From positions 186,001 through 250,000 of the forward strand of contig JAIBCL010000006.1 of the NCBI GenBank assembly GCA_019694165.1: a stretch of DNA of 64,000 bases, given 5' to 3'. Shown here piece by piece: positions 13,683-54,888 of this stretch. The position numbers were made by a program, and so were the translations under genes. The notes under the pieces are model-generated. The model searched no databases, was not told where the DNA came from, and saw only the letters and a list, made by a program, of their open reading frames with translations. The DNA comes from Verrucomicrobiaceae bacterium. Its GTDB lineage: Bacteria; Verrucomicrobiota; Verrucomicrobiia; Verrucomicrobiales; Verrucomicrobiaceae. Within the stretch, counting starts at the first letter, position 1. Every line of letters starts with the position of its first letter.

Positions 13683-14780
13683 TTACTTTTTCTCGAAAGG
13701 ATCTGCGCCGCCTGCGGGCGGTGCGCCGGCACCCGGTTTGGCGGGAGCGCCGCCGAATGGGTCGGCGGTGGAGGGGTTTTCCTTCGTGCCTGCTCCACCT
13801 GCGGCAGGTGCCGGTGCTGCGGGCGCGGCACCAAAAGGATCACTCGCGGCGGGCGCGGCAGGAGCGGCTCCAGCCGGCATCGCACCGCCAGCGGCGAAAG
13901 GATCGCCCCCCATGGCAGCGGCAGGTGCAGGCGCGGCGGGCGTTTGCGGCGCAGCAGCTGCGCCGGCGGCCGGCGGAGGTGCCGGAGCAGTAGTCGTGGG
14001 TGCGGCTGCCACCGGGGCGGCCTTCACCAAATCACCCGCACGAAGGCGCTCGCCTTTAGCCACGCTGCCGGGGATCACATCAGCCACGGCGATCCGTTGC
14101 TCGACATTTCTCACCTTGAGCTTGGCGATCACATCCTTGCCGCGATGCACCTCGAGATCGGCATTGGCAAAGACACCGCCGGCGTTGCCCTTGTTGAGAA
14201 CGACAAATCCCCATTCGCCAAAGACCGATGCCAGGCTGGCGGTGAACTCCGGATCAACGATGCCTTTGCGGGCACGGGCTTCCTGATCACGGAACTTCGT
14301 GATGGCACCCTGAAGATTGGCGAGAGACTCCTTCTTCGCCGCCAGACGCTGTGTCTCGCTCGCCACTTCGCCGTCCTTGGACTCCTTTTCCTTCTTCAGG
14401 CGTTCCACGTCCGCCAGAAGCTTCTCGACGTTGCCGAGTTCATCGATCTTTTTCTGAATCGTGTCCACCTGCTGCGTCACCTGCGTCAGCGTGTTCTTCG
14501 CAAGTTGCAGCGCGGCGTCCTTTTCCTGCGACTCGGCGGCCGCCTTGGTCACCTTCTGCTTCGTGACCTCGAGTTCCTTTTTCAGGGTTTCGACCTGGGC
14601 TGTCGTTTTCTTCTGCGCCTCCTCACCCTGCTGCTTGCGGGCCAGCAGCGTCGCGTGGTCCTTTTCGGCGCGTTCCGCCAGCATCTTCTCCGATTTCAGC
14701 GCCTTGCTGTTGGTGATCGCAAAATACACCGATACCGCGAGCAGCGCGGCGGTGACTCCAGACAAAAGTTTCCAGACCAT
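13683..14780 (-). CDS. Membrane-anchored coiled-coil protein with C-terminal beta domain and Pro/Ala tail (copy 2)
   Basis: The 365-residue product begins MVWKLLSGVTAALLAVSVYFAI, a single membrane anchor. It is followed by a coiled coil to about residue 180, a beta domain (WGFVVLNKGNAGGVFANADLEVHRG, then VIAKLKVRNVE and RLRAGDLVKA) homologous in layout to the neighbour at 12842-13627, and about 110 residues of Pro/Ala/Gly-rich low complexity with repeated DPFGAAPAAP-type units. Start 14780 was chosen because it begins directly with the membrane segment; the frame continues upstream without support. The two genes and the small lipoprotein gene probably form one transcript. Confidence 0.78.
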   Translation of the reverse strand: MVWKLLSGVTAALLAVSVYFAITNSKALKSEKMLAERAEKDHATLLARKQQGEEAQKKTTAQVETLKKELEVTKQKVTKAAAESQEKDAALQLAKNTLTQVTQQVDTIQKKIDELGNVEKLLADVERLKKEKESKDGEVASETQRLAAKKESLANLQGAITKFRDQEARARKGIVDPEFTASLASVFGEWGFVVLNKGNAGGVFANADLEVHRGKDVIAKLKVRNVEQRIAVADVIPGSVAKGERLRAGDLVKAAPVAAAPTTTAPAPPPAAGAAAAPQTPAAPAPAAAMGGDPFAAGGAMPAGAAPAAPAASDPFGAAPAAPAPAAGGAGTKENPSTADPFGGAPAKPGAGAPPAGGADPFEKK

Positions 14781-35569: not shown

Positions 35570-36328
35570 GTGAGCTTCGTGACCATCCACGACCTGTCGC
35601 GGGAACTGAACATCCCCGCCCGTGTCGTCCGGTATCGCTTCCACCAACTCAGGCAGGCCGGGAAGCTGGCTGAGGGCGACGATTTTCGTCGCGAGGACTA
35701 TGTGGACGAGCAGCACTTCACTTGGCTGATCAACCCCCTCGCCTACATGCGCGAGACGGGCAAGGTGGTCGCGCCGCCCCCTATTGGCATCCACTTCCCG
35801 AAAATCGAGCCGCCTGTTTCTCCCACTGGTTACGACGATGGCAACCAAGCTGGTAACAATCCACCGCCGATGGTTAACCAAGTTGATACCAAACCGAGCG
35901 CGCCTGTTACCCAAGCCCCGCCGCTTGGCAACCAACCGGATACCAAGCCACAGATCCCCTCTCTCGAACGGGAGATGATTGAGTTTTTGAAGGAGCAAAT
36001 CGGCGAGAAAGACAGTCAGCTCCACACGAAGGACGAGCAGATTAAAGGGCTGTCCGAGCAGTTGAAAGAATCAAGCGATCTCAATGTGCGGCTGGTCGGT
36101 CAGAACGTGCATCAGGCGAATCAGATTCAAGAACTGTTGAAACTCTCTTCCGGCAGTGCGTCCGATGCGAAGACGGTTACCAGTTTTGGCAACCAAGATG
36201 CGGAGGTTGTTAACGAAGTGGTTAACAGTGACGACGAGTTTGATAACAGCTTTGTTGCCAGCCCCGATGCCGATGGCTACCACGCGCCACAGGAGACGCA
36301 CGAGCAGGGGAGCGGAGCAGCGGTTTAG
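35570..36328 (+). CDS. Plasmid-type HTH and coiled-coil protein (replication or partition accessory)
   Basis: The product of about 252 residues has an N-terminal winged-helix-like segment (TIHDLSRELNIPARVVRYRFHQL), a Pro/Asn/Gln-rich middle (residues about 80-140) with repeated NQ and DTKP units, and a coiled coil (LEREMIEFLKEQIGEKDSQL, then KDEQIKGLSEQLKES, residues about 140-205). HTH-plus-coiled-coil proteins like this are typical accessory replication or partition proteins of plasmids. GTG at 35570 is the longest start; GTG at 35579 has better spacing to the GGGGG at 35564-35568. The coding sequence carries many copies of a GGYAACCAA/GATACCAAG motif also found in the gene at 50033-53107. 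Confidence 0.65.
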   Translation: MSFVTIHDLSRELNIPARVVRYRFHQLRQAGKLAEGDDFRREDYVDEQHFTWLINPLAYMRETGKVVAPPPIGIHFPKIEPPVSPTGYDDGNQAGNNPPPMVNQVDTKPSAPVTQAPPLGNQPDTKPQIPSLEREMIEFLKEQIGEKDSQLHTKDEQIKGLSEQLKESSDLNVRLVGQNVHQANQIQELLKLSSGSASDAKTVTSFGNQDAEVVNEVVNSDDEFDNSFVASPDADGYHAPQETHEQGSGAAV

Positions 36329-36363: not shown

Positions 36364-36783
36364 TTGGCCTTGGTGCCGCATAATCCGGGCGTGGAGAAAT
36401 ATTCGCGCGATTTCAAAGGCGTCTGGATTCCAAAGGAAATCTGGCTCTCTGAAAAGCTGTCCCTCATGGAGAAGGTGCTTTTCGTCGAGATTCAGAGCCT
36501 CGACAACGAGCGCGGTTGTTATGCTTCCAACCGTCATTTCTCCGAGTTCTTCCAAGTCAGCCCCCGCCAGATCGCGACCTACATCGCCTCGCTCAAGGCG
36601 AAGGGCTTCATTTCGGTGCGAATACAGAACCAGAACGAGCGCACGATCCGGGCGATGGGGAAGTATGCCCGCGTGCCCGAGGACAAGATCCGCGCCTACC
36701 GCGAAATGAGCAATGCCCTCGCGGACAAAATGCGCATCTCTGGCCGCAAGGGGGGTATGAAGAAAGCTTCAGGGGAGGTATGA
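36364..36783 (+). CDS. Helix-turn-helix replication initiator-like protein
   Basis: The product of about 139 residues has a winged-helix domain of the HTH_36 type seen in phage and plasmid replication proteins: FKGVWIPKEIWLSEKLSLMEKVLFVEIQSL, here given in parts as WIPKEIWLSEKLSLMEK and VLFVEIQSLDN, followed by CYASNRHFSEFFQVSPRQIATYI. The start is TTG at 36364 or GTG at 36373; no ATG fits. The 3' end consists of repeats with 23-bp spacing that continue past the stop codon and look like iterons. Its stop overlaps the next ATG (ATGA at 36780). It probably starts replication of the element at this site. Confidence 0.7.
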   Translation: MALVPHNPGVEKYSRDFKGVWIPKEIWLSEKLSLMEKVLFVEIQSLDNERGCYASNRHFSEFFQVSPRQIATYIASLKAKGFISVRIQNQNERTIRAMGKYARVPEDKIRAYREMSNALADKMRISGRKGGMKKASGEV

Positions 36784-37109: not shown

Positions 37110-37385
37110 ATGAGCCACACGCTCGACCACATCCGGCAGGAACTCAAAACGCTGCGGCCAGCCGAGCGTTTTGACCTGTGGCGCGATCTCGGCAGAGAGT
37201 TTGATCCGCCGTCTGATTCCGACGGCGACGAGGGGGCCGTCGAGTCCGCGTGGGACGCCGAGATTGACGCCCGCGTCAGAGAGATCGAAAGGGGCGAGGT
37301 CGAGCTTGTATCCGCCGACGAGGCCATTCAGCGTGTCCGAGCCAAGCTCGCCACGCGCCGCGCGCCTCGTAAGTCGGCTAAATGA
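37110..37385 (+). CDS. Antitoxin, addiction-module component family
   Basis: The 91-residue protein resembles the small putative addiction-module component family: an N-terminal helical pair (LDHIRQELKTLRPAERFDLWRDL) and an acidic middle with AWDAEIDARVREIERGEVELVSADEAIQRVRAKL, given here in parts, which is the stretch typical of ParE/RelE-partner antitoxins. Its stop codon overlaps the toxin start by four bases (ATGA at 37382-37385), as expected for a toxin-antitoxin operon. It should neutralise the downstream product by direct binding. Confidence 0.82.
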   Translation: MSHTLDHIRQELKTLRPAERFDLWRDLGREFDPPSDSDGDEGAVESAWDAEIDARVREIERGEVELVSADEAIQRVRAKLATRRAPRKSAK

Positions 37386-37702
37386 AGTTGGCCACTATGC
37401 ACCCAACCGCCGAGCGCGAGTTGGGTGAGATCACGGATTACTACGCAGCGATAGCTGCGGAACTGGCTGACGCCTTCGTGGGCTGTTTCGAGTCGTATAA
37501 GGCCCGAATCGTCGAAAATCCGCTGCAATTCAGCATCCGCAGGGGAGCCGTTCGCCGGGCGAATCTCGCTCCGCAGTTCGGCGAATACTACCTGCCGTTT
37601 ATGATCCAAAAGAATCGCGTTGTCATTCTCGCTGTCGCGCACGCCAGACGCCGACCGCACTACTGGCGGGATCGAATTGGCGAGGCGAAGAAGCTGGCTT
37701 GA
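37382..37702 (+). CDS. ParE/RelE-family toxin
   Basis: The 106-residue protein has the ParE/RelE fold signature: an N-terminal strand and helices (MHPTAERELGEITDYYAAI and LADAFVGCFESYKARIVENP), a central QFSIRRGAVRRANLAPQFGEYYLPFMI region, and a C-terminal ILAVAHARRRPHYWRDRI that matches the conserved VLAVAH..R.P.YW pattern. ParE-type toxins inhibit gyrase and RelE-type toxins cleave mRNA; this sequence is closer to ParE. The start overlaps the antitoxin gene. The pair probably stabilises the island. Confidence 0.85.
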   Translation: MKLATMHPTAERELGEITDYYAAIAAELADAFVGCFESYKARIVENPLQFSIRRGAVRRANLAPQFGEYYLPFMIQKNRVVILAVAHARRRPHYWRDRIGEAKKLA

Positions 37703-37786: not shown

Positions 37787-37822
37787 TGTAGTGTCGCGAA
37801 ACAGATAATGTCCGACACTACA
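37787..37822. repeat. Perfect 10-bp inverted repeat with 16-bp spacer
   Basis: TGTAGTGTCG at 37787-37796 pairs with CGACACTACA at 37813-37822 across a 16-base spacer that itself contains ATGTC. The outer ends read TG...CA. It lies 85 bp after the toxin gene and marks the start of the palindrome-rich non-coding segment. The shape suits a recombination or transposon-end site or a protein-binding site. Confidence 0.65.
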
Positions 37823-38314
37823 AATGGCTCTACATCCATCGTATGTAGGGGCTATCGCCCGCGCTATCGCGAATCCGCCGGTCAACAGAGCGACAACTTG
37901 CGCCCCCAACGTGTCCGGGCTACCGCCCGACCTCGCAGTTTTTCCATACGGCTATCGGGACTCGGAGCGGCCTAACCGGCGCACACTCGCCAAAAACCGC
38001 GAGGTCGGGCGCTACACGGGCTATCGCCCTGCCCGACACGTTGGGGGACTACTGGCGCACGACCACGCGCCGAGGGCGCGACGACTTCGCAGCCGCTAGC
38101 CGCAGGCTGCGCACGACCGCCGTTGGAAAAACTGCCGCGCTGTCCCCTGCCGCGACGAGCGGCGGTATGATGGTCGCGGAGCTTCGGGACTCACAGCCAG
38201 TCGCCATTACCCCGCCGACTCGTTCACACATCGTTTGTCGGCGGCTCATCCTGCAATGCCACACTGACACGGGGGCAGCGCAGGGGAATCGGAGTGGCGG
38301 CTGGCTCTGGAGCC
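37823..38314. other. Palindrome-rich non-coding segment upstream of the VirD4-like gene
   Basis: No credible gene is present in this stretch. Three GGGC-TAYC-GCCC mini-hairpins occur at 37849-37860, 37917-37928 and 38018-38029, with related GCGCTATCGC (37861) and CGGCTATCGGG (37949). A larger imperfect palindrome has outer arms 37903-37920 and 38031-38047 (17 bp with one extra C) and inner arms GCCCGACCTCGC 37925-37936 and GCGAGGTCGGGC 37999-38010. GCAGTTTTTCCA (37935-37946) is inverted at 38124-38135. Further stems are at 38067-38079, 38088-38111 and 38213-38243. An origin of transfer or replication, or a folded RNA, would fit. Confidence 0.65.
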
Positions 38315-39604
38315 ATGAACTGCGCACGCTGCCTTATCGGGCACCGCTACGGCTGGGGCGAAGATGTCCCATTCGGCATCTCCGCCACAGATCGGCGGCA
38401 GCATGTTTATGTGATCGGAAAAACCGGCTCCGGTAAATCGACCCTGCTGCGAAACATGATCATCCAGCATGTGTTCGCGGGCGATGGAGTCGGCTTGATT
38501 GATCCGCACGGCGACCTTGCCGAAGACATCCTCGATCATGTCCCGCCGTGGCGGGCCGATCACCTCGTCTATTTCAATCCAGCCGATACCGACTTCCCCA
38601 TCGGTTTGAATCCTCTCGCCAACGTCATGCCGGATGACCGGCATCTCGTCGCTTCGGGTGTCGTAGCCGCATTCAAAAGCATCTGGGCAGACTCGTGGGG
38701 GCCACGTTTGGAATACACGCTTCACAACGCCGTCGCCTCCCTGCTCCACTGTCAGAACACCTCACTCATCGGCATCAATCGCCTTCTCACCGACCCAAGT
38801 TATCGCGCATGGGTAGTGCGCCAGATCGACGATCCGTTTCTGCGCGACTACTGGACTCAGGAATACGAGAGCTACGATCCGCGCTTTTTGCGCGAGATCA
38901 TCGCGCCGATCCAAAACAAAGTCGGCCAGTTCATGCTCTCCCCCATCGTCCGCAACATACTTGGTCAGGTGTGCAGCAAAGTGTCCATTCCTTTCGTGAT
39001 GGACAACGAACGGCTGTTCATCGCCAACCTCTCAAAAGGCAAACTCGGCCACGACAAATCGAACCTTCTCGGCTCGCTGCTCACCACGCAGTTTCAACTC
39101 GCCGCAATGGCGAGAGCAGACACACCGGAGCATGAGCGCCGCGATTTCTACCTGTTCATCGACGAGTTCCAAAACTTCTCCACCGATGCCTTCGCCAGCA
39201 TTCTCGCCGAGGCGCGGAAGTATCGGCTCTCCCTCACTCTCTCCCACCAATACGTCGATCAGCTTTCGCTTCCCGTTCGGCAGGCGGTGTTCGGCAACGT
39301 CGGCACCATGATCGCCTTCCGCGTCGGCCACGCCGACGCCGACGCGCTCCATTTCGAGTTTGGCGAAGAATTTGTGCCGAGCGTTTTCGTCGATCTCAAT
39401 CGCTTCGAGATCATCGCCCGACTTCTTGAAAACGGCTCCAACACGCAGCCGTTCCGAGGCCGAACCATGCCACCGATTGATGAGCGCGTTGGCAGACGCG
39501 AGAAGCTGATTGCGCGATCACGGGAGCGATTCGCGACGCCACGAGCAGAGATTGAAGCGAAGCTCAATCGGTGGCTTACGTCGTCATCCGCCGTCAATTG
39601 CTGA
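38315..39604 (+). CDS. VirD4/TraD-like DNA-transfer ATPase (short form)
   Basis: The 429-residue protein has a Walker A motif GKTGSGKST near residues 35-43, LIDPHGDLAEDILDH, which is typical of type IV coupling ATPases with a TraM-recognition/TraD-DNA-binding domain, and the Walker B segment FYLFIDEFQNFS. The following LAEARKYRLSLTLSHQYVDQL and FGNVGTMIAFRVG segments are the C-terminal helicase-like half. It lacks N-terminal membrane helices, unlike classical VirD4. ATG 38315 has TGGAG seven bases upstream and is preferred over GTG 38294. It should pump DNA during transfer. A second, longer family member is at 50033-53107. Confidence 0.83.
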   Translation: MNCARCLIGHRYGWGEDVPFGISATDRRQHVYVIGKTGSGKSTLLRNMIIQHVFAGDGVGLIDPHGDLAEDILDHVPPWRADHLVYFNPADTDFPIGLNPLANVMPDDRHLVASGVVAAFKSIWADSWGPRLEYTLHNAVASLLHCQNTSLIGINRLLTDPSYRAWVVRQIDDPFLRDYWTQEYESYDPRFLREIIAPIQNKVGQFMLSPIVRNILGQVCSKVSIPFVMDNERLFIANLSKGKLGHDKSNLLGSLLTTQFQLAAMARADTPEHERRDFYLFIDEFQNFSTDAFASILAEARKYRLSLTLSHQYVDQLSLPVRQAVFGNVGTMIAFRVGHADADALHFEFGEEFVPSVFVDLNRFEIIARLLENGSNTQPFRGRTMPPIDERVGRREKLIARSRERFATPRAEIEAKLNRWLTSSSAVNC

Positions 39605-40521: not shown

Positions 40522-41457
40522 ATGTCAATCACCGTCGCCCGGCGACTGCCGCGCTTTCGGCGCGTGAGCGATCAAGTATCGCCTATTCAAATTACGTCGC
40601 GCGACCTCGAAATCATCCGCCAAATCAGCCGACATCGCTTTTTGCGCTCCACACACGTCATCGCCCTCGCGGGTGGCAGCGCACAGCAAGTCTTGCGGCG
40701 ACTCCAGCGGCTCTACCACCTCGGCTATCTGGAGCGACCGAAATGCCAGATCGACTACTACCACCGCACCGGTTCGCAGCGCCTTGTGTATGGCCTCGCG
40801 CGGAAAGGCGCGACAGTGCTCGCCAGTCTCGGTGGTTCCGAACACAGACCCATCGATTGGAATGAGAAGAACCAGCACATAGGCCGCCCGTTTCTCGAAC
40901 ACGCTTTGCTCGTGAGTGACTTCACAGTTTTGCTCGAACTCTCCTGTCGCTCCCGAAACGATGTGCGGTTCATCACCGCCAACGAACTCCCGCTGCCGTC
41001 AGCCACACAGAAACTCGGTGAACCATTCCGTTGGGGCGTCACGATGCCCACTGGAGAAAAACTCGGCATTGTCCCCGATGCCGTTTTTGCCCTCGATCAA
41101 ACCCGCGCTGGCGGCACCATAGAGCGCACCTTCTACTTTCTCGAAGCCGACCGCGCCACCATGCCGATCACGCGACGCGGACTGAAACAAACCTCCTTCT
41201 TTCGCAAACTTCTCGCCTACGAAGCCACATGGTCACACGGCCTCCATCGTTCTCGCTTCGGTTTTCACCGCTTCCGCGTGCTCACAATCACCAGCACCTC
41301 GCAGCGCAGCACCAACCTCATCGCCGCCAGCCGCAAGCTGAGGAGCGGCCAAGGACTTTTCATGTTCTCCGATGCGGCGGCGCTCTCCTCTGCCGCCAAT
41401 GCGCTCGCGATGTCTTGGCGCACCGCGATCAATCAGACGGAAACACTCCTTCGGTGA
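40522..41457 (+). CDS. Replication-relaxation family protein
   Basis: The 311-residue protein has the N-terminal winged helix of the replication-relaxation family: LEIIRQISRHRFLRSTHVIALAGGSAQQVLRRLQRLYHLGYLE, given here in parts as ITSRDLEIIRQISRHRFLR and VLRRLQRLYHLGYLERP. It is followed by YGLARKGATVLASLGG and a C-terminal domain with a conserved IVPDAVFAL and FYFLEADRATMPI. Family members are found on plasmids and ICEs of many phyla and are thought to act in replication initiation or mobilisation. It supports the mobile nature of the region. Confidence 0.82.
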   Translation: MSITVARRLPRFRRVSDQVSPIQITSRDLEIIRQISRHRFLRSTHVIALAGGSAQQVLRRLQRLYHLGYLERPKCQIDYYHRTGSQRLVYGLARKGATVLASLGGSEHRPIDWNEKNQHIGRPFLEHALLVSDFTVLLELSCRSRNDVRFITANELPLPSATQKLGEPFRWGVTMPTGEKLGIVPDAVFALDQTRAGGTIERTFYFLEADRATMPITRRGLKQTSFFRKLLAYEATWSHGLHRSRFGFHRFRVLTITSTSQRSTNLIAASRKLRSGQGLFMFSDAAALSSAANALAMSWRTAINQTETLLR

Positions 41458-41609: not shown

Positions 41610-42647
41610 ATGTCTCAAAACACCAAAGCTCGGTGGGTCGATTTCGCCCACGTCAAAGCCTCGGTCACGATTGATCAAGTGCTTGTTCACTATGGCATCC
41701 GTGATCAGTTCAAACCCCAAGGCAGCGGCCAGAGCCTTCGCGGGCCGTGCCCCATTCATGGCGGCAAAGCCAAGGATTTCTCTGTAGATCTCAGCAAGAA
41801 CATCTGGATTTGCCATTCCAGCCGATGCTCATGCGGCGGAAATGTCCTCGACCTCGTGCGGCTCAAAGAGCAGACCACGCTTCGTCAGGCTGCCATTCTG
41901 CTTTGCGATTGGTTCAACATTTCGGATACGCCGAACGCGGATTCACACCCCGTGTCGGCTGATAGCAATCAGCCCAGGCGACAAAAACCGAAGGAGTATG
42001 CGCAAAAGCAAGAGCCGCCGAAAGCTGCTCGCGAGTCTGCCGAGGAGGCGAAGCCGAACAAACCACTCAGCTTCGCGCTATCCAATCTCGACCCCGCGCA
42101 TCCGTATCTTGCGGAGCGCGGATTGACGGCGGAAACCATCGAGCATTTCGGCCTCGGCTTCTGTGCAAAAGGCATGATGGCTGGCCGCGTCGTGGTGCCA
42201 ATCCACAACGCCGCCGCTGAACTCGTCGCCTATGCCGGACGCTGGCCCGGCGAGCCGCCGGACAAGGACACGCCAAAATGGAAGCTGCCGCCCGGTTACT
42301 GGAAGACGCAGGACATCTTCAACTTGTTCCGCATCGCCGAGGAACCGGCAGAGACGCCGCTCGTCATCGTCGAGGGCTTCATCGGTGCCATGTGGCTCCA
42401 CCAACTCGGCCACCACAAAGTCATCGCGCTGATGGGCAGCACGATGAGTGACGTTCAACTGTCCCTCATCGCCCAGCGCATCACAGCGAGCACTCGGATT
42501 GTCATCATGTTCGACGAGGACGAAGCCGGTCGCGAAGGCCGCGACGAAATCGCCCCGCGCCTCGCCGCGCTCTGTTACGTCCGCATCCACCGCTTCCCTG
42601 AAGAAGGAACGCAACCTGAGTCTTTACAGCAAAACACTGTCGAGTAG
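41610..42647 (+). CDS. DNA primase-like protein (CHC2 zinc finger and Toprim)
   Basis: The 345-residue protein has a CHC2 zinc-binding domain at the N-terminus (CPIHGGKAKDFSVDL, then WICHSSRCSCGGNVLDLVRL, residues about 45-85). A Pro/Lys-rich linker follows, then a DnaG-type N-terminal core segment (YLAERGLTAETIEHFGLGF). A Toprim domain has VIVEGFIGAMWLHQLG (near residue 252) and MFDEDEAGREGRDE (near 297) with the DxDxxG acidic site. It is shorter than DnaG and lacks the helicase-binding domain, as in element-borne primases. The ATG has AAAGGAG nine bases upstream. A hairpin (ACACGG at 41535, CCGTGT at 41557) lies in the leader. A decayed copy of its 3' end lies at 43740-44035. Confidence 0.88.
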   Translation: MSQNTKARWVDFAHVKASVTIDQVLVHYGIRDQFKPQGSGQSLRGPCPIHGGKAKDFSVDLSKNIWICHSSRCSCGGNVLDLVRLKEQTTLRQAAILLCDWFNISDTPNADSHPVSADSNQPRRQKPKEYAQKQEPPKAARESAEEAKPNKPLSFALSNLDPAHPYLAERGLTAETIEHFGLGFCAKGMMAGRVVVPIHNAAAELVAYAGRWPGEPPDKDTPKWKLPPGYWKTQDIFNLFRIAEEPAETPLVIVEGFIGAMWLHQLGHHKVIALMGSTMSDVQLSLIAQRITASTRIVIMFDEDEAGREGRDEIAPRLAALCYVRIHRFPEEGTQPESLQQNTVE

Positions 42648-42690: not shown

Positions 42691-43023
42691 TCACAGGTTT
42701 AGCAATACTAGCGACACCACGCCCAGCGCAAAGCCGATCATCTCGCGCGTGGTGAGATGCTCTCCGAAGAGCACAAGGCCGCAGATGGCAAGGCTCACGC
42801 TCCACAATACCGAGAACAAGACTCCCGAAGTGGCGAGCTTGGCAGTTTGCAGCACGATCACCCAACTGAAGCCGCACAGGCCGTAGATCAATGAACCCAC
42901 GATGAAGCTACCGGAGGTGAACGGTCGCGGCAGCGCGGCGGCGCGCTTGAAGAAGACATCACCGATGGCGCAGATGAGCACCAACCAGACAATATGAAGC
43001 CATGCCACCGCGCTCATTTGCAC
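42691..43023 (-). CDS. Small four-helix transporter (SMR/EamA-like)
   Basis: The 110-residue product consists of four hydrophobic segments: WLHIVWLVLICAIGDVFFK, FIVGSLIYGLCGFSWVIVL, LFSVLWSVSLAICGLVLF and MIGFALGVVSLVLLNL. This is the size and layout of small multidrug resistance or half-size EamA transporters, which work as dimers exchanging cationic compounds for protons. The SMR membrane glutamate is not obvious in helix 1, so substrate is uncertain. The start overlaps the end of the SET gene by 10 bp (or 4 bp if the ATG at 43017 is used), suggesting co-translation. Confidence 0.75.
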   Translation of the reverse strand: MQMSAVAWLHIVWLVLICAIGDVFFKRAAALPRPFTSGSFIVGSLIYGLCGFSWVIVLQTAKLATSGVLFSVLWSVSLAICGLVLFGEHLTTREMIGFALGVVSLVLLNL

Positions 43024-43379
43024 CGGAACGAGTAGCCCAACTGGCGGTAATCTAGCGTGATCTCTTCACCCGGCAGGATGTCGCGGATCGCGGTGATCGT
43101 GTTACCGCCGTCCGTCGCGTTCGGGGTGTCGGAATGGTTAATGAACCGGTCATCGTCACCGGTCAGCAGGTAGCAGCCGCAGTCGTTTTCAAACGACGAG
43201 TAGTAGAGCACCTGCCTCTGGGCGTGAGGCGACAAGTTTCTGAGTTCGTTTTCTGTGTAGCGAACGTCAAACGGCGGGTCGAATGCCCAGATAGTTTCCC
43301 CCGCCTTGATGTGTTGATGGGCGAACAAACCTTGGCCGTGAATGAGGGAAGGTTGGGCAGTGGCGTGAACTCGAAGCAT
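43014..43379 (-). CDS. SET domain protein (lysine methyltransferase-like)
   Basis: The 121-residue product is a compact SET domain. It starts VHATAQPSLIHGQGLFAHQHIKAGE, the G-x-G-L-F segment that binds S-adenosylmethionine, has DDRFINHSDTPNA with the diagnostic NHS pseudoknot motif, and ends with ILPGEEITLDYRQL, matching the GEEITxDY motif. Catalytic residues appear intact, so protein-lysine methylation is a fair prediction; the substrate is unknown. Start 43379 (MLRVHAT) was chosen; the frame further upstream runs antisense to the XRE gene. An operator pair begins three bases upstream of this start. Confidence 0.85.
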   Translation of the reverse strand: MLRVHATAQPSLIHGQGLFAHQHIKAGETIWAFDPPFDVRYTENELRNLSPHAQRQVLYYSSFENDCGCYLLTGDDDRFINHSDTPNATDGGNTITAIRDILPGEEITLDYRQLGYSFRCK

Positions 43380-43381
43380 CG

Positions 43382-43422
43382 GTGTCTGGAAATCCAAACA
43401 ACTTGTCTGGAATCCCAGACAA
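43382..43422. promoter_or_regulatory. Two tandem palindromic operators in the SET/XRE divergent promoter
   Basis: Copy 1 is GTGTCTGG-AAAT-CCAAACAA (43382-43401) and copy 2 is TTGTCTGG-AATC-CCAGACAA (43403-43422). Copy 2 has perfect 8-bp arms. The centres are 21 bp apart, two helical turns, so two dimers would bind on one face. The XRE gene starts 40 bp to the right and the SET gene starts directly to the left. This is the expected layout for autoregulation by the XRE protein together with control of the SET-transporter genes. Confidence 0.72.
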
Positions 43423-43461
43423 TCACAATCAAAAAGGCCCATATTCTCGCGGGGTCTTCTC

Positions 43462-43722
43462 ATGGCAGCCCCGCGCAACATCGTCGGCCCCCAGGTCATG
43501 CGGATTCGGAACGGCAAGAGCATGTCCCAATCCGATCTGGCTGTGGCGTGCCAATTGATCGGCTGGGACGTGTCGCGCGGCGTCATCGCCAGGATCGAGG
43601 GCCGCGTGAAATGGGTGTCGGATTCGGAACTGCTCCAACTGGCGAAGGCACTGAAAGTGACTGTTCCCGAACTCTTTCCCAAAAGCGCGCAGCGATTATT
43701 TCGAATCGCGCAAGCTGGTTAG
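43462..43722 (+). CDS. XRE-family helix-turn-helix regulator
   Basis: The 86-residue protein is a single helix-turn-helix domain: VMRIRNGKSMSQSDLAVACQ, then IGWDVSRGVIARIEGR and VSDSELLQLAKALKVTVPELF. It is divergent from the SET gene, with two well-formed tandem palindromes in the 82-bp gap, so it is probably the repressor of both. The insertion in the recognition helix region (LIGWDVSRGVIARIE) is typical of the branch that contains phage-like regulators. It has the only regulator gene in this part of the island. Confidence 0.85.
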   Translation: MAAPRNIVGPQVMRIRNGKSMSQSDLAVACQLIGWDVSRGVIARIEGRVKWVSDSELLQLAKALKVTVPELFPKSAQRLFRIAQAG

Positions 43723-47105: not shown

Positions 47106-49331
47106 ATGACCGCGCGAACAGCACATTCCAGTTTGGACGGCACTTCCACTTGGTTGAGCCTTGGGGGTTGCATCCTTGGACTCGCAGTCGCGTTCGTGTG
47201 GCTACCGGATTCACTTTGGGAACATTTTTTGCCCTCCCTTCCCGCCAAGCTTTTCTCGCCGTTATTCACTTCGTCGTTTGTGGCAGGCTGGGTCGTCGGT
47301 CTGTGTCGCCTTAAAACAGGCCGCGCTGAACGAGAAGGGGCGAGCCTGTCTCGGGCTTCGGTCGCGGGGCTGATCACGGCAATAGTGGCCTGCCTCGCGG
47401 CCCACGCGGCGAGCATGGGGCCGCGCGGCGCGTCATCACTGCCTCTATCTGTTGCCGCCGCGTTCCTCGCGCTGGGGATGCTCCCGAGCGCGATGTTCGC
47501 CACGTTCGGTGCGGGATTCGCGAACGCCATCCCGCGTTGGATTGGCGCGCTTGTGGCCGGAGTGATGATTTTGGTTTGGCCGGCTGGTTATCTGATTGGG
47601 CGGATGGTGGAAAAGAAGCCGGTTACATTGCACACGGCACAGCCCGTTGTCGCTCCCCCGCCGAAACCATCGCCGCGCTACGCGAAGCCCAAGGACTTCG
47701 ATGCGGCGAATGCTTGGAAGCGAACTGTGCTCCGAGAAGACGTGATTTCGGACATGGCGAGCGGATCGCCGCTAGTGCTCTCGCGCTCGGAGCAGCGGAT
47801 TGCATTCGTCAGCAGCGTGAACGGTAAGTTATTGCTCACCGTGCGCCACCTTTATGCATCGGATCAAGATCGTGCGGTTGGATTGGCGGGAGGAGCTGTT
47901 GCGCTCGGGTGGTCGCCGGACGACAGCCGCCTCGTTTCCCTTGGAGGCGACGGCGTGTTTTCGGTTTGCGAACCGGAACGCGGCTCGCTGATTCCGTTGC
48001 CAATTCCGAAAATCAAATCGAGTGATGTGTCCGGTTTCGTGTGGTGGCAAGCGGAAGACGTGCTGGTGATTTCTCGACGCGGCGAGCCGCAGATGCTCTC
48101 GCTGGATACGTTGCGGCTGATGCCCACGAGCCAGCATCAAGGCTGGGCGGCTTTGAAGGACGCGGATCGGCGGCGCATTGTGGGGACTGCGGACATGCCG
48201 CCGCTGCATTCGGGCGACAAGCTTCGGTATTCACTGGATGCGAGCGGCGATGCTCGCTCCTTGATGGCGCATGATACGCAAGCGCTCTACGGCCGCGTTC
48301 TCGCCGCCAATCTCGCAGGGGTGCGGCAAGCCTTCTCGAATCGCGACGGGAGCATCCTCTTTCTCGCGGAGCGCGAGCGGTTGAGGTCTTTGTACATAGG
48401 TCTTCGTGATGCGCCAACGCTGCGCTTCGTTGCGGAGAGTCGCGAGGACTTCCCCGCGACCGACGCAGCGAAGGCTGCAATCAAGGATCGCTCCATTGAG
48501 TGCCTGATCGCGCCACCGATCATCAACCCGCTCAACGGCAAGACGGTCTCCGGCGATGTCGAGCACGCGAAGGGGCTGGCCCGTGTCATCGCGGCTGATG
48601 GCAAGACGGCCACCGTTTGGGTAACCGAGGAACGCGCCCCGATTCACGAGGGCGACGTGGTGATGCTGCCCCGCGCTGCCCTGCCGAATGGAGGCGCGCT
48701 GCTTTCGCCGACGTGGTTCGCCGTTCTCACGAAGGCAGACGCGAGCCAGGACATTCCCCGGCGTGAGATCGAAAAGCCTCCCGTTGCGGCCGTTACCACG
48801 AAGCCGGACGCTCCACCTGCAACGCCCGTGACTGAGAAGCCGCCGGCTACCAGTCCCGTGCAATCTCCAGCGCCTAAGGCTGAACCGATGCTCATCATAC
48901 CGCCGAAGAAAACCGAACCCCATCCCCCGCCGACTATGAGCGCCGAGGACAAGGTTCGGCAACTGGTGGTGCGGCACCACGAAGCGCTGAGCAAACACGA
49001 TCTCGACGGCGTGCTGGACACCTGCGGCGCAATCGCCACGATCAACGGGAAGGATCACACCCGCGCAGAAGTCCGCTCGACCCTGATCGGCATTTTTTCC
49101 CAAAAGTCGCGCATCGTTGAAAGCGTGGACGGCGAGATCGACGTGCGGCGCGGCCAGAACAGCCGGTTCACTGCGAGCTACGATTTCGTGTTCGAGGCGA
49201 GCATTCCGCACGGTGATGATGAGCGCGGATACGGCCACATCGACATGGACGTGCTGCTCACCACGCAGGGGCCGAAAATGGTGAAGAAGTCGATGCGCGT
49301 GCTCCGCGTCGATAAGCTCAGAGGGAAATAG
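47106..49331 (+). CDS. Large membrane protein with propeller-like and NTF2-like domains
   Basis: The 741-residue product has about five N-terminal membrane segments (for example WLSLGGCILGLAVAFVWLP, GLITAIVACLAAHAA and GALVAGVMILVWPAGYLIG, up to about residue 165). A WD40-like region follows (residues about 190-560, with GWSPDDSRLVSLGGDGVFSV), then a Pro/Lys linker (560-620) and a C-terminal NTF2/SnoaL-like domain (VRQLVVRHHEALSKHDLDGVLD, then FTASYDFVFEASI). I do not recognise the combination. It is followed at 6 bp by the 49337 gene and then the coupling ATPase, so it probably belongs to a transfer operon. Confidence 0.7.
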   Translation: MTARTAHSSLDGTSTWLSLGGCILGLAVAFVWLPDSLWEHFLPSLPAKLFSPLFTSSFVAGWVVGLCRLKTGRAEREGASLSRASVAGLITAIVACLAAHAASMGPRGASSLPLSVAAAFLALGMLPSAMFATFGAGFANAIPRWIGALVAGVMILVWPAGYLIGRMVEKKPVTLHTAQPVVAPPPKPSPRYAKPKDFDAANAWKRTVLREDVISDMASGSPLVLSRSEQRIAFVSSVNGKLLLTVRHLYASDQDRAVGLAGGAVALGWSPDDSRLVSLGGDGVFSVCEPERGSLIPLPIPKIKSSDVSGFVWWQAEDVLVISRRGEPQMLSLDTLRLMPTSQHQGWAALKDADRRRIVGTADMPPLHSGDKLRYSLDASGDARSLMAHDTQALYGRVLAANLAGVRQAFSNRDGSILFLAERERLRSLYIGLRDAPTLRFVAESREDFPATDAAKAAIKDRSIECLIAPPIINPLNGKTVSGDVEHAKGLARVIAADGKTATVWVTEERAPIHEGDVVMLPRAALPNGGALLSPTWFAVLTKADASQDIPRREIEKPPVAAVTTKPDAPPATPVTEKPPATSPVQSPAPKAEPMLIIPPKKTEPHPPPTMSAEDKVRQLVVRHHEALSKHDLDGVLDTCGAIATINGKDHTRAEVRSTLIGIFSQKSRIVESVDGEIDVRRGQNSRFTASYDFVFEASIPHGDDERGYGHIDMDVLLTTQGPKMVKKSMRVLRVDKLRGK

Positions 49332-49336
49332 CTGCC

Positions 49337-50029
49337 ATGTTCGGACTGTTTTCATTGCGGAAGCCCGAGGTGCATAAGCACCAGGGCACCTACATCGAGA
49401 AGTTCAGCGTCCCGCCCGGCGAGTTCTACGCGGCCATCGAGCGCGAGATCGCGGCGCTCGGCATCCCCGACATCGCCGTGTCCCGCGTGTTCTACCGCGA
49501 GGGCGGGCCGGTCTCCGCCGAGCGCGAATACCTCCGCATCGGCCGGGGGCGGCTCGGATACATTGTCTGCGCCGCGAGCTGGGGCACGAGCTTCTTTTTC
49601 AGCAAGCGGTTCACCGAGAAGACGCGCAACCTGCGCGTGTGGGAGGTCGTCGCCATGCTCGCGTTTCTCGCGAGCGCGTTCGCCGCCTACTGGCAGTTTC
49701 TCGGCCTCGTGTGGGGCATCATCATCTTCGTGCTCAATGTCATTGCAGCCGCCATGCTGTGTCGGAACGCGGTCGCGATGGGCTGGGATTGGCTCGACGA
49801 TTTGCTCCTCCGCCTGCCAGTCATCGGCACCTTCTACGAGAACTATCTGCGGCCCGGCGCTTACTTCAAAGACGACACGCTCGGCCTATTCGTAAACCTC
49901 GCCGATTCTATTGTTGATCGCCAGATCAAGGCATTCACCGCGGATAGTGGCGTGACGCTCGGCGAGTTCAAAGACCTCAAACCCGAAGGCAAGCTCGCGG
50001 CGTTTGTCCGGAAATTAGTCGGAGGATGA
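49337..50029 (+). CDS. Hypothetical membrane protein of the transfer operon
   Basis: The 230-residue protein has a soluble N-terminal domain (EKFSVPPGEFYAAIEREIAAL, FYREGGPVSAEREYLRIGRG) and two central membrane helices (VVAMLAFLASAFAAYWQFLG and VWGIIIFVLNVIAAAML). The C-terminal part is soluble (VNLADSIVDRQIKAFTADSG). No family name was recognised. It sits between the 741-residue membrane protein gene and the large coupling ATPase gene with 6-bp and 4-bp gaps, so the three are almost certainly co-transcribed. It may anchor the ATPase, which has no membrane helix of its own. Confidence 0.7.
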   Translation: MFGLFSLRKPEVHKHQGTYIEKFSVPPGEFYAAIEREIAALGIPDIAVSRVFYREGGPVSAEREYLRIGRGRLGYIVCAASWGTSFFFSKRFTEKTRNLRVWEVVAMLAFLASAFAAYWQFLGLVWGIIIFVLNVIAAAMLCRNAVAMGWDWLDDLLLRLPVIGTFYENYLRPGAYFKDDTLGLFVNLADSIVDRQIKAFTADSGVTLGEFKDLKPEGKLAAFVRKLVGG

Positions 50030-50032
50030 CGC

Positions 50033-53000
50033 ATGGGTTGGCTCGACGACCAGATTTCAGATCAGTTCTGGACGTGGGAGGCGCTGGGGCGCGGGGTGCT
50101 CACGTTTCCCGAACCCGTGTCGCCGTCGCCGCCATTCGTGCCCTTCACGGGCTACCGGCTGCCGCAAACGCAGGATGACGGGCGTCGGCCAGGGTTGCTT
50201 GAACGAATGTCGAAGGCGTTCCGCTCCGAGCCTCCCCCACTGCCAGAGGTCGAGGACGAGGAACCGGAACCGAACTGGCGCGGGGAAAAAGAATTCTGCG
50301 AGACACTGGTGCTGCTGCCGGAGTCATTCAAGGCGGATAGCGAGGTCTTCGGGCGGATGCTCGCCAATATGCAGGGTTGCTGCGATGCAATGGCGTTCGA
50401 GATCGTGGGTGCGCCGGGGCGCGTGGTCTGCCAACTTGCGACGAGCGTTGACGATGCGGCTTCGGCACGCCGGCAACTGACGGCGCACTTTCCAGAGGCG
50501 TCATTCGTGCCGTGCGATGGCAATCTGGCCTCCGCGTGGCTGGCGGAAAATGAGGCGCACAGCGCCATCGTCGAGTTCGCGCTATGCCGCGAGTTCATGC
50601 TCCCGCTGGCGCGGAGCAAGACCGATCCGTTCGTCGGCTTGGTCGGGGCGCTGTCCGATCTCGGCGACGGCGAGGCGGGCGTGTATCAGGTGATCTTCGA
50701 GCCGCTGGCCGAGCCGTGGGCGGAGAGCGCGTTCGCCGCTGTCGCGGATGGCGAGGGCAAGCCGATCTTTGACGACCGCCCGGAGCTGGTGAAGGCCGCC
50801 GCCGACAAGCTGTCGCAGCCGCTCTACGGCGCGGTGGTGCGCATTGCAGCCCGCAGTGTGGACTTCCACCGCGCGTGGGAAATCGCACGAGAGATGGCCT
50901 CCGCGCTGCGCGTGTTCTCGTGGCGCAACGGCAACGAGCTTTTCCCGCTGCCTAACGACAACTATCCCCACGACGAGCACGAGCGCGATTTGCTGATGCG
51001 GCAGACGCGGCGCAGCGGGATGATCCTCAACGTGGACGAGTTGATTGGCTTCGCCCACTTCCCCACTGCGGCGGTGCGGTCGCCGGTGTTCGCCCGCTTC
51101 GCGGCGGACACGCGACCGGCCAGCATCGCGCGACGTGACGGCGTGTTTCTCGGATTCAACGAGCACGCTGGAGAAACGAGAGAAGTGTGGCTCGATGCGC
51201 AATCGCGACTGCGGCACTGCCACATCATCGGCGGCACCGGCACGGGCAAATCGACGCTGATGCTCTCGATGATCGCGCAGGACATCGAGCACGGCGAGGG
51301 GTTCGCCTTGCTCGACCCGCACGGCGACTTGGTTGATGCCGTGATGGGCTTGATTCCGCCGGAGCGCGCGGGCGATGTCGTATTGCTCGATCCGTCCGAC
51401 GAGCAGTTCGTCGTGCCGTTCAACATCCTCTCCGCGCACTCAGACTTCGAGAAGCAGCTCCTCGCGAGCGACCTCGTGTCCGTGTTCCAGCGCCTCAGCA
51501 CGAGTTGGGGCGACCAGATGCAGGTGGTGATGCAGAACGCGGTGCTCGCCTTTCTCGAAAGCGACGAGGGAGGCACACTCGCCGACGTGCGGCGGTTCCT
51601 CATCGACGCCGCTTGGCGGGAGCGGTTCCTGCGCACCGTCGCCGATGCCGACGTGCGCTTCTACTGGCGGAGCGCGTTCCCGCAGCTCGGCGGCGGGCGC
51701 AGCATCGGGCCGATCCTCACGCGATTGGAGACGTTCCTCTCGCCGAAGCCGATCCGCTACATGGTGTCGCAGCGCGAGAACCGGCTCGACTTCGACGCGA
51801 TCATGGGTGGCGGGAAAATCTTCCTCGCGAAGCTGCCGCAGGGAGTGATTGGCCGAGAGAACGCCTTCCTGCTCGGCAGCCTCCTCATGACGAAGCTGCA
51901 ACAGGCGGCGATGGGCCGCGCGCGCATGAGCGCGGCGGAGCGCGTCCCGTTCCACTGCTACATCGACGAGTTCCAGCACTTCATCACGCCGTCGCTCACC
52001 GAGATACTGAGTGGCGCGAGAAAGTATGGCCTTGGCCTCGTGCTCGCGCACCAAGAGCTAAAGCAATTGGAGCGCGACCGGGACATGGCGAGCGCCGTGC
52101 TCGCCAACGCCTTCACCCGCGTCGTGTTCCGCGTCAGCGATTCGGACGCGCGGACCCTCGCGGAGGGCTTTGCGCACTTCGAGGCACGACACTTGCAGAG
52201 CCTCGGCACCGGCGAGGCGCTGTGCCGCATCGGGAGCGCTGGCAACGATTTCAACTTGTCCGTGCCACTGCCGCCGGAGATTGACGAGGAAGACGCGACT
52301 GCGAATCGCGCTGCTGTGATCGAGGTGTCGCGCGCAACGTATGCGATGCCGCGCAGTGAGATTGAGGCCGAGATGCTGCGGCGGCTCGAAGCGGAGGAAG
52401 TCGCGCAACCGCCGCGCAGAGCGAAGCCCGCGCCGGTGAGCGAGCCGCTGGCGGTAACCAAATCGGATACCAAGTCGGCAGCCGAGGTGGTTAACGAAAC
52501 GAGCGAGCACACGGAGGCGGCGGAACCGCCAGCAGAAGTAAACCAGGCCGCGCCAACGAGCGCGGGCATGGGACGCGGTGGATTGGATCACCAGTTCATC
52601 GTCGAGCAGCTTGCCGTTGATGCGATCCGCTTTGGCTACCGGGCCACCAAGGAATTCGCGGTGCCAGACGGGCGCGTGGACATCGCGCTGGAGAAGCGCG
52701 AGCGGCGGATCGCAATCGAAGTGGCGGTGAACACGAACACCGCCCACGAGATGGAGAACATCTTGAAGTGCTTCGCGGGCGGCTTCGATCATGTCGTGTC
52801 GCTCTCGCCGCTGCCCAACGTGCTCGAGAACATCCGACGCGCAGCCGGGCGACGATTGCCGTCGGAACAACTGTCGCGGATGCAGTTCCACGCGCCGGGG
52901 AGTTTCCTCGCGTGGCTGGAGGTCATCTCCGCGAGCGACGCGGAGAGTGTCGCGCAACCTTCCGACGAGATGCGCACATACGGCGGCAGGCGCGTCCGCA

Positions 53001-53107
53001 TCAAGCGCGTTGAACTCGCGCCGGACGAGCGAGCACGACTGGAGAAAGAGCACTTGGCGGCCATCGCGGAGATTCTGAGCAGTAGCTCAACAACGAGCGC
53101 TGATTGA
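50033..53107 (+). CDS. VirD4/TraD-like DNA-transfer ATPase with C-terminal nuclease-like domain (long form)
   Basis: The 1024-residue protein has an N-terminal domain of about 380 residues with no recognised motif, Walker A GGTGTGKST near residue 400, LLDPHGDLVDAVMG, Walker B FHCYIDEFQHF near 640, and LSGARKYGLGLVLAHQELKQL, the same ATPase core as the gene at 38315-39604. The C-terminal third has a Pro/Glu linker and then a domain with GYRATKEFAVPDGRVDIAL and RRIAIEVAVNTN, which resembles a PD-(D/E)xK nuclease core with Lys replaced. GGAGG lies upstream of the ATG. It shares repeated DNA motifs with the gene at 35570. Confidence 0.85.
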   Translation: MGWLDDQISDQFWTWEALGRGVLTFPEPVSPSPPFVPFTGYRLPQTQDDGRRPGLLERMSKAFRSEPPPLPEVEDEEPEPNWRGEKEFCETLVLLPESFKADSEVFGRMLANMQGCCDAMAFEIVGAPGRVVCQLATSVDDAASARRQLTAHFPEASFVPCDGNLASAWLAENEAHSAIVEFALCREFMLPLARSKTDPFVGLVGALSDLGDGEAGVYQVIFEPLAEPWAESAFAAVADGEGKPIFDDRPELVKAAADKLSQPLYGAVVRIAARSVDFHRAWEIAREMASALRVFSWRNGNELFPLPNDNYPHDEHERDLLMRQTRRSGMILNVDELIGFAHFPTAAVRSPVFARFAADTRPASIARRDGVFLGFNEHAGETREVWLDAQSRLRHCHIIGGTGTGKSTLMLSMIAQDIEHGEGFALLDPHGDLVDAVMGLIPPERAGDVVLLDPSDEQFVVPFNILSAHSDFEKQLLASDLVSVFQRLSTSWGDQMQVVMQNAVLAFLESDEGGTLADVRRFLIDAAWRERFLRTVADADVRFYWRSAFPQLGGGRSIGPILTRLETFLSPKPIRYMVSQRENRLDFDAIMGGGKIFLAKLPQGVIGRENAFLLGSLLMTKLQQAAMGRARMSAAERVPFHCYIDEFQHFITPSLTEILSGARKYGLGLVLAHQELKQLERDRDMASAVLANAFTRVVFRVSDSDARTLAEGFAHFEARHLQSLGTGEALCRIGSAGNDFNLSVPLPPEIDEEDATANRAAVIEVSRATYAMPRSEIEAEMLRRLEAEEVAQPPRRAKPAPVSEPLAVTKSDTKSAAEVVNETSEHTEAAEPPAEVNQAAPTSAGMGRGGLDHQFIVEQLAVDAIRFGYRATKEFAVPDGRVDIALEKRERRIAIEVAVNTNTAHEMENILKCFAGGFDHVVSLSPLPNVLENIRRAAGRRLPSEQLSRMQFHAPGSFLAWLEVISASDAESVAQPSDEMRTYGGRRVRIKRVELAPDERARLEKEHLAAIAEILSSSSTTSAD

Positions 53108-53178: not shown

Positions 53179-54888
53179 ATGAATGCATCTCAAAAGAAAG
53201 GGAAACGGGTAGGTGTCTGGATTCGAGTCAGCACCGAGGATCAAGCCATCGGCGAAAGCCCGCAGCACCACGAGTATCGCGCCCGGCAGTATGCCGAGTT
53301 CCAAGGCTGGACGGTGATCGAGGTTTACGACTTGGCCGGCGTGAGCGGCAAATCCGTCTGGGAGCACCCGGAATGCCAGCGGATGCTGCGCGACCTCAAG
53401 CGCGGCCACATCCAAGGATTGATCTTCTCCAAGTTAGCCCGCCTCGCGCGGAACACCCGCGAACTGCTCGATTTCGCGGACGTGTTCGAGGAGCACAAGG
53501 CCGCGCTCGTTTCCATCGAAGAGAAGATCGACACGTCCACCCCGGCGGGACTGCTCTTCTACACGATGCTCGGGGCCATCGCGCAGTGGGAGCGCGAGGA
53601 GATTACCGCGCGCGTGCATTCGTCGATCAAGGTGCGCGCCAAGCTCGGCAAGCCGTTGAGCGGCGGCGCGCCCTACGGCTACAAGTGGGAGGACAAGAAG
53701 CTCGTGCAGGTGCCCAGCGAGGCGGCGGTGCGGCGGCTCGCCTTTGAATACTTTCTGGAGCACAAGCGCAAGGGCGTCGTGGCGCGGCTGCTCAACGGGA
53801 AGGGCCACCGCACCCGGCACGGCAAGGAGTTCCGCGACATGCACGTCAAGCGGATGCTCGAATGCCCCAGCGCCATCGGCGTTTACCGCACCAACACGCA
53901 CAAGGGCAACGGGAACGGCAAGGGCTGGCAGCGCAAGCCGGAGAGCGAGTGGGGCAGCAGCCCGTGCCCGGCCATCGTGAGCGAGGACGTGTTCCGGCGC
54001 GTGAACGAAATCCTGGAGCAGCAGTTCAAGCCAACGGCCAAGCCCGGCAAGAAGCCGACGCACGTCTTCGCGGGTGTGGTGCGGTGCGCCTGCGGCGGCA
54101 AGATGTATGTTTACACCCGCAGCCCGAACTACACCTGCACGCGATGCAAGAACAAGATCGGCGCGCGGGCACTCGACGAGTTGTTTCTCGACTGCATCAA
54201 GGACACGCTCGCCGACAGCGGCCAGATCGCCGAGCAGATCAAAGCCGCCAAATCCAAGATCGCGCTGCGATCCGGCGAGATCGCGGCGGCCCGCAAGGAA
54301 CTCGACGAGGTGAAGGCCGAGATGCGGAAGGTTTACGACCTCTACATCGCGGGCGGCGTGGACGTGGAGGGATTCAAGGCGATCAACAAGCCGCTGGAGC
54401 AGCGGCTCAACGGGCTGACCGAATCGCTCGCGCGACTGGAGGGCGAAGTGTCCGCACGGCAGGTGAACGACCTGAGCGTGGACGCCATCCGGCAGGAGGC
54501 GCGGAGCCTGTCCAAGGCGTGGTCTGGACTCGACGCCGACGGCAAGCAGCGAATCGTGTCGATGCTCTGCAAGGAGATCGTCGTGCCCGACAAAGACCCC
54601 GAAGCCCCAATCGAGTTGACCCTCACCCATGCCCCGCCGCGAGACACGAGCGCCCACATACCATCGCCGCACAAAGCGCCCTCCAAACCTCGCGATAGCC
54701 GGAACAACCCCGGCGACTCCGATCACCCCTCCCAGCCTCCCTCCGGTGAAGTCTCTGACTCCACTTCAAACTGCCTTAAAGCCCCACAGAGCCTTGTCCA
54801 TTCAACCCAAAACCCGGCAACTACACATTACCAGCGCGACGCTATTCGGAGATGCGCAGAAAGCTGTCGAGCGGATCGAGAGTGGTGA
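53179..54888 (+). CDS. Large serine recombinase (site-specific integrase)
   Basis: The 569-residue protein has a resolvase N-terminal domain with the catalytic serine near residue 18 (VWIRVSTEDQA), ARLARNTRELLDF and TMLGAIAQWEREEI. A recombinase domain (residues about 175-290) is followed by a zinc ribbon with CACGGKMYVYT and YTCTRCKNK, and a coiled coil (about 365-440). This is the layout of large serine integrases that insert and excise elements between short att sites. The last 90 residues are Pro/Ser-rich and overlap another open frame at 54629-55027, so the attachment junction may lie here. It is the only integrase in the island. Confidence 0.92.
   Translation: MNASQKKGKRVGVWIRVSTEDQAIGESPQHHEYRARQYAEFQGWTVIEVYDLAGVSGKSVWEHPECQRMLRDLKRGHIQGLIFSKLARLARNTRELLDFADVFEEHKAALVSIEEKIDTSTPAGLLFYTMLGAIAQWEREEITARVHSSIKVRAKLGKPLSGGAPYGYKWEDKKLVQVPSEAAVRRLAFEYFLEHKRKGVVARLLNGKGHRTRHGKEFRDMHVKRMLECPSAIGVYRTNTHKGNGNGKGWQRKPESEWGSSPCPAIVSEDVFRRVNEILEQQFKPTAKPGKKPTHVFAGVVRCACGGKMYVYTRSPNYTCTRCKNKIGARALDELFLDCIKDTLADSGQIAEQIKAAKSKIALRSGEIAAARKELDEVKAEMRKVYDLYIAGGVDVEGFKAINKPLEQRLNGLTESLARLEGEVSARQVNDLSVDAIRQEARSLSKAWSGLDADGKQRIVSMLCKEIVVPDKDPEAPIELTLTHAPPRDTSAHIPSPHKAPSKPRDSRNNPGDSDHPSQPPSGEVSDSTSNCLKAPQSLVHSTQNPATTHYQRDAIRRCAESCRADREW

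Follow-up and report, generated by a model that had tools for sequence, protein, structure and literature searches.

A covarying nested palindrome upstream of VirD4 as the probable transfer origin of a Verrucomicrobiota element with a MOBC relaxase

MOBC relaxases and the element in the window

MOBC is one of the relaxase families that have been studied less. To our knowledge, a stable covalent intermediate with DNA has not been observed for MOBC relaxases, and these enzymes resemble restriction enzymes. The MOBC prototype, TraX of pAD1, joins a winged helix to a restriction-endonuclease-like domain, and how DNA is handed over without a known covalent link has been stated to be open (PMC12857230). 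The TraX binding site consists of five direct repeats that lie 70-120 bp from nic (PMC12857230). PF13814 represents the MobC relaxase superfamily in CONJscan, and streptococcal class 8 integrative and mobilisable elements carry a MobC relaxase, VirD4 and a serine integrase (PMC5357655).

The window, that is, the whole 64,000-nucleotide stretch of a Verrucomicrobiaceae genome analysed here, contains an element with a comparable set of genes, all on the plus strand. These encode a VirD4-type coupling ATPase (38294-39604; PF10412, E 1.8e-9), a MOBC-type relaxase of the Replic_Relax family (40522-41457), a DnaG-like primase belonging to the transfer module (41610-42647; CHC2 zinc finger and Toprim) and a large serine recombinase (53179-54888; PF00239, E 1e-31; PF07508, E 2e-15), which is the proposed integrase of the element. 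Upstream of the module lie an antitoxin (37110-37385) and a ParE-type toxin (37382-37702), with PF09720/PF05016 matches covering the pair. The presence of both a MOBC relaxase and a large serine recombinase indicates an integrative mobilisable or conjugative element. No direct repeat longer than 9 bp was found between its presumed ends, as short att cores are expected for an element of the serine-recombinase type, and a search for the empty site in relatives matched the flanking gene at just 29-37% identity.

An earlier note on this DNA recognised no relaxase and suggested an unusual mobilisation route. The product of 40522-41457 nevertheless matches PF13814 with 76 bits against a cut-off of 25 (E 4.4e-21), and with a MOBC relaxase present such a route is not needed, though Pfam scans of the element's ORFs recognised no standard mating-pore genes. 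The predicted structure of the relaxase is confident (pLDDT 84 for the whole protein, 87 for the C-terminal domain). In this model, the stretch of residues from about 21 to 109 resembles MarR-type winged helices, with Z up to 10.8. The C-terminal part carries a PD...ExD...K arrangement in which P185-D186, E208-x-D210 and K229 are invariant in eight relatives, and restriction enzymes and related nucleases make up most of the best structural matches of this domain, BstEII, PaqCI, FokI and MunI among them, at a modest Z of 6.2-6.7.

At 47106-53107 in the window, proteins of 741 and 230 aa without a Pfam match adjoin a 1024-aa VirD4/HerA-like ATPase; the two recur as a pair in another element (L107), and the proteins of this stretch are possibly an unrecognised translocation apparatus. 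A SET-domain protein gene lies inside the mobile element at 43014-43682. The contig of the window also holds a second element of the same family (L033, G000:C19:48000-67000), with genes for a tyrosine recombinase and ArdC, a palindrome, and genes for VirD4, relaxase and primase; its cargo, identified by eye, is phosphoribosyltransferase-like and PfkB-like.

A nested palindrome maintained by paired mutations

A large nested palindrome occupies 37903-38047, exactly where the earlier note had placed it. The outer arms (37903-37918 and 38032-38047) pair over 13+4 bp with a single unpaired C, as described, and their ends read CCCCAAC and GTTGGGG. The inner arms (37921-37943 and 37992-38014) are present too; they are 23 nt long with 91% complementarity, and not 12 bp as first given. 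Both reported GGGC-TAYC-GCCC hairpins exist, at 37917-37928 and 38018-38029, the latter reading GGGC-GATA-GCCC on the minus strand. The first has bases in common with the inner stem at its foot, and hairpin and stem therefore compete; a third copy of GGGCTATCGCCC lies outside the palindrome on the plus strand (37849-37860). Across the entire 7.8-Mb genome, GGGCTAYCGCCC has only three copies, all at this locus within 180 bp.

The single-stranded DNA fold has an energy of -49.0 kcal/mol, whereas shuffled sequences average -28.1 (z = -7.3) and none of 200 shuffles does as well; the opposite strand is more stable still (-56.0 kcal/mol). A de-novo detector found one nested palindrome in the 64-kb window, five in 966 kb of real control DNA, a background of roughly 5 per Mb, and none in 1.37 Mb of shuffled DNA. 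The palindrome of the window is thus real and not a product of chance. The 501-bp region around it occurs once in the genome, and no close plasmid DNA match to the region was found. A REP/BIME (REP/RAYT) repeat was considered and rejected, as the motif is restricted to one locus and has no dispersed copies in the genome. Protein coding was likewise rejected: the ORF at 37824-38099 has no Pfam match, and aligned relatives have indels inside it.

Homologous elements show that the fold itself is conserved. Among ten diverse copies of the palindrome, 18 of 36 base pairs have changed on both sides, and the covariation score of 0.435 compares with 0.157 for shuffled data (0/500) and at most 0.081 when partners are slid. 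The fold is maintained by paired mutations across distant relatives, and the earlier note's refuting condition, an absence of structural conservation in related islands, turned out in favour of the structure. The strand antisense to VirD4 is the more stable one in 29/29 elements, with a mean of -66.6 vs -57.7 kcal/mol, these elements being related and not independent. Distant and Enterococcus elements likewise have the more stable fold on the strand antisense to the relaxase gene. Since the elements are related, counts of G.T pairs are no more than suggestive as a test of strand.

Association with VirD4 and the relaxase

VirD4 homologues in a sample of the phylum led to similar palindromes upstream of VirD4 genes. 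A first covariance model, built on four copies, was used to search 68 genomes of the family irrespective of their genes, and the fold was recovered in 21. All 19 genomes with a close VirD4 carry it (Fisher 6e-15), as do all 17 with a MOBC relaxase (Fisher 1e-12), both values taking the 68 genomes as independent. The two palindrome genomes outside the VirD4 set are one whose contig stops just past the palindrome (G438) and one with a VirD4 remnant (G406). Wherever the contig is long enough, a VirD4 homologue follows the palindrome in the same orientation, the remnant being one such case. A second model, built on the minus strand, was used on 388 genomes of the phylum and found the palindrome in four, exactly those with a close VirD4. 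Named public genomes yielded further copies.

The palindrome is part of a conserved module of fixed order: an operator-like Box A, about 56 nt, the nested palindrome, and ACGAC direct repeats. Box A in the window is a 15-bp inverted repeat, ACATCCATCGTATGT, at 37832-37846, matching the family consensus ACATACnnnGTATGT at 11/12 positions. It lies 52-59 nt before the palindrome in 11/11 class-1 elements, the window among them, and 85-101 nt before it in class-2 elements. A further inverted repeat, GTAGTGTCG ... CGACACTAC, is seen at 37788-37821, between the toxin gene and Box A. The plus-strand ACGAC repeats (38059-38063, 38081-38085 and 38113-38117, spanning 38059-38117) form the proposed relaxase binding region. 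Over 29 loci, 50 copies lie on the plus strand vs 3 on the minus strand, shuffles giving a mean of 12.1 and a maximum of 21; the repeats are only 5 bp long and irregular, and some elements have one or none.

What stands next to this module varies. The window has toxin-antitoxin genes and a serine recombinase, several relatives (L031-L033, L089 and L090) have a tyrosine recombinase, and elements of one genus (g3) have Rep, ParA and ParB genes beside the palindrome. Integration and maintenance genes are exchanged around a module that keeps to VirD4 and the relaxase, a pattern that speaks against both a site for an integrase and an origin specific to one replicon.

More distant loci were also surveyed. 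Nested palindromes were also seen in four elements on IMG/VR contigs to which the model has no match; their sequences are unrelated, and they stand 0.03 to 0.6 kb upstream of an ATPase or relaxase gene belonging to the module. No covariance-model match was obtained for patescibacterial VirD4 homologues, near which no relaxase was detected, and a few such loci still have nested palindromes. One, at L150 1601-1740 in a Candidatus Magasanikbacteria genome, lies about 15 bp upstream of a VirD4-like ORF, again with no relaxase detected nearby; another is at L154 1638-1855.

A probable transfer origin and its relation to known systems

Positions from about 37832 to 38117 are likely to form the oriT of an integrative element with a MOBC relaxase, VirD4, a primase and a large serine recombinase. 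This reading rests on the strict co-occurrence with VirD4 and the relaxase, the compensatory conservation, the fixed layout of the module with its Box A spacing and direct repeats, and an anatomy of the pAM373 type. The palindrome is very probably the start site for passing the integrated element between Verrucomicrobiota cells. The earlier note had offered transfer or replication; the former is well supported, while the latter fits less well. Adjoining Rep, ParA and ParB genes in the g3 elements would suit a site at which the excised element replicates or is partitioned, but the palindrome is kept where Rep and ParAB are absent and tyrosine recombinase genes stand instead, and it tracks VirD4 and the relaxase, so that such a role appears very unlikely. 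Slightly less remote, though still improbable, is a site of the Frpo or ssi kind, in which RNA polymerase or primase would act on the folded strand that enters the recipient, for early expression or complementary-strand synthesis. The strand asymmetry of the fold, the primase gene in the module and the nearby toxin-antitoxin, ArdC and defence genes are consistent with it. Frpo candidates are defined by -35/-10 hexamers in the stem (PMC11541004), yet no -10-like hexamer with 5/6 matches was found on either strand of six palindromes, and -35-like hexamers were isolated only. Such a role could coexist with an oriT.

An alternative possibility is a recombination site for gene capture, similar to attI or attC, at the edge of a cargo region. 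The g3 elements (L077-L088 and L091) are about 95% identical except in a variable stretch between the palindrome and VirD4. It begins +6 to +83 past the palindrome and stops about 120-145 bp short of VirD4, and a class II prokaryotic Argonaute, an E1/ThiF-type protein and a capP-like protein are among its cargo; in the window only 246 bp separate the palindrome from VirD4. The greater stability of the bottom strand, as in attC, and an Xer-like integrase adjoining in some relatives also speak for capture. Against it, the attC likeness drawn in the earlier note fails at the consensus (ends of the form RYYYAAC ... GTTRRRY), and the CCCCAAC/GTTGGGG ends are not kept in relatives, those of L031-L033 being CCCAYGTG / CAYGTGGG. 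The palindrome is intact in the window, although no PF00589 match (tyrosine recombinase or integron integrase) was found there. The right border of the hotspot is a promoter-like TGCTATAAT of VirD4 followed by a conserved leader, and a second site was not seen. We therefore give capture very little weight, and the hotspot may mark only a gap between two needed sites that tolerates insertion. The leader (38190-38310 in the window; also L096, L098-L100 and L102) conserves CAGCCGCCATTACC, in the window as CAGCCAGTCGCCATTACC. RNA folds were predicted for six leaders, and in all of them this motif is paired to the start-codon region GGAGTGGCGGCTG, suggesting that VirD4 translation may be controlled by its own leader. 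Might the palindrome itself be a structured non-coding RNA or mRNA leader? Its strong, conserved and covarying fold would allow this, but the more stable strand is antiparallel to VirD4, no conserved sequence stands beyond the ACGAC repeats, at the position that a promoter for this strand would need, and further downstream VirD4 is served by a promoter-like site and leader of its own. A known RNA family was rejected, an Rfam search being without match, and an RNA role in general seems highly improbable.

If the locus is an oriT, the winged helix of the relaxase would serve to bind the ACGAC direct repeats, and a second protein or a dimer would bind Box A, for which HTH proteins encoded at 35570-36328 and 36364-36783 are candidates. 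The nuclease-like domain of the relaxase could then nick a single strand within or next to the palindrome, with the folded single strand positioning or terminating cleavage. VirD4 would export the nicked strand, and the primase may help to rebuild the duplex. Were the minus strand transferred, one may speculate that maintenance genes enter first and VirD4 and the relaxase last, as usual. A bolder proposal, which we hold as doubtful, is that MOBC relaxases recognise and cut a folded structure, either an extruded cruciform or a one-strand hairpin, and not only a linear nic sequence. If so, structure-specific processing would have left its mark in the compensatory conservation and in the recurrence of palindromes whose sequences are unrelated. 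The palindrome is a short DNA substrate suited to structure-specific nicking tests. As a computable signature, a covarying nested palindrome could serve to find MOBC transfer origins, and it identifies a Verrucomicrobiota family of mobile elements carrying defence genes.

Likenesses to known systems differ in kind. With attC sites the palindrome shares a folding single strand, extra-helical bases and a favoured bottom strand, but it is a single site and not an array, the core-site consensus is absent and there is no integron integrase. With Frpo and ssi sites it shares long conserved single-stranded DNA hairpins close to conjugation genes, but the stems examined are without promoter hexamers. 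Streptococcal class 8 elements have the same three protein families but belong to a different phylum, and the element in the window has in addition a primase, RadC-like and maintenance genes.

Among MOBC systems, no nested palindrome was found in CloDF13, in whose record mobC is unannotated, or within 7-8 kb of Sulfitobacter and Bradyrhizobium MOBC relaxase loci; from the latter, the pairing of MOBC with a palindrome is not universal. The closest anatomy is that of pAM373, typed as MOBC. The primary paper on the origins of pAD1 and pAM373 is reportedly that of Francia and Clewell (2002). The 36.7 kb of pAM373 contain one nested palindrome (14392-14533), which lies between the TraG-like and Replic_Relax genes and is followed by five 12-bp direct repeats. 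Applying the repeat-to-nic distance of pAD1 to pAM373 would put nic in or next to this palindrome, which may thus be its experimentally mapped oriT. A nested palindrome stands at the same place in three other Enterococcus plasmids of the MOBC type, whose relaxases share 47-60% identity with that of pAM373; one Enterococcus MOBC plasmid has a second, downstream of the relaxase (L207 3534-3693).

The differences between pAM373 and the window are clear. No sequence likeness between the palindromes is seen, and the relaxases are barely alignable (hhalign probability 1%). The repeats of pAM373 are 12 bp and regular while those of the window are shorter and less regular, Box A was not found in pAM373, and the palindrome of the window lies upstream of both genes instead of between them. 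The likenesses are those of architecture: a palindrome of 142 nt in pAM373 vs 145 in the window, outer arms of 18 vs 13-17 bp and inner arms of 25 vs 17-23 bp, adjoining VirD4-type and Replic_Relax genes, direct repeats on the VirD4 side and, in both, a more stable strand antisense to the relaxase. We regard as new the compensatory conservation of the nested fold, the fixed spacing of Box A, the Verrucomicrobiota element family and, ultimately, an anatomy common to a Verrucomicrobiota element and the MOBC plasmids of Enterococcus.
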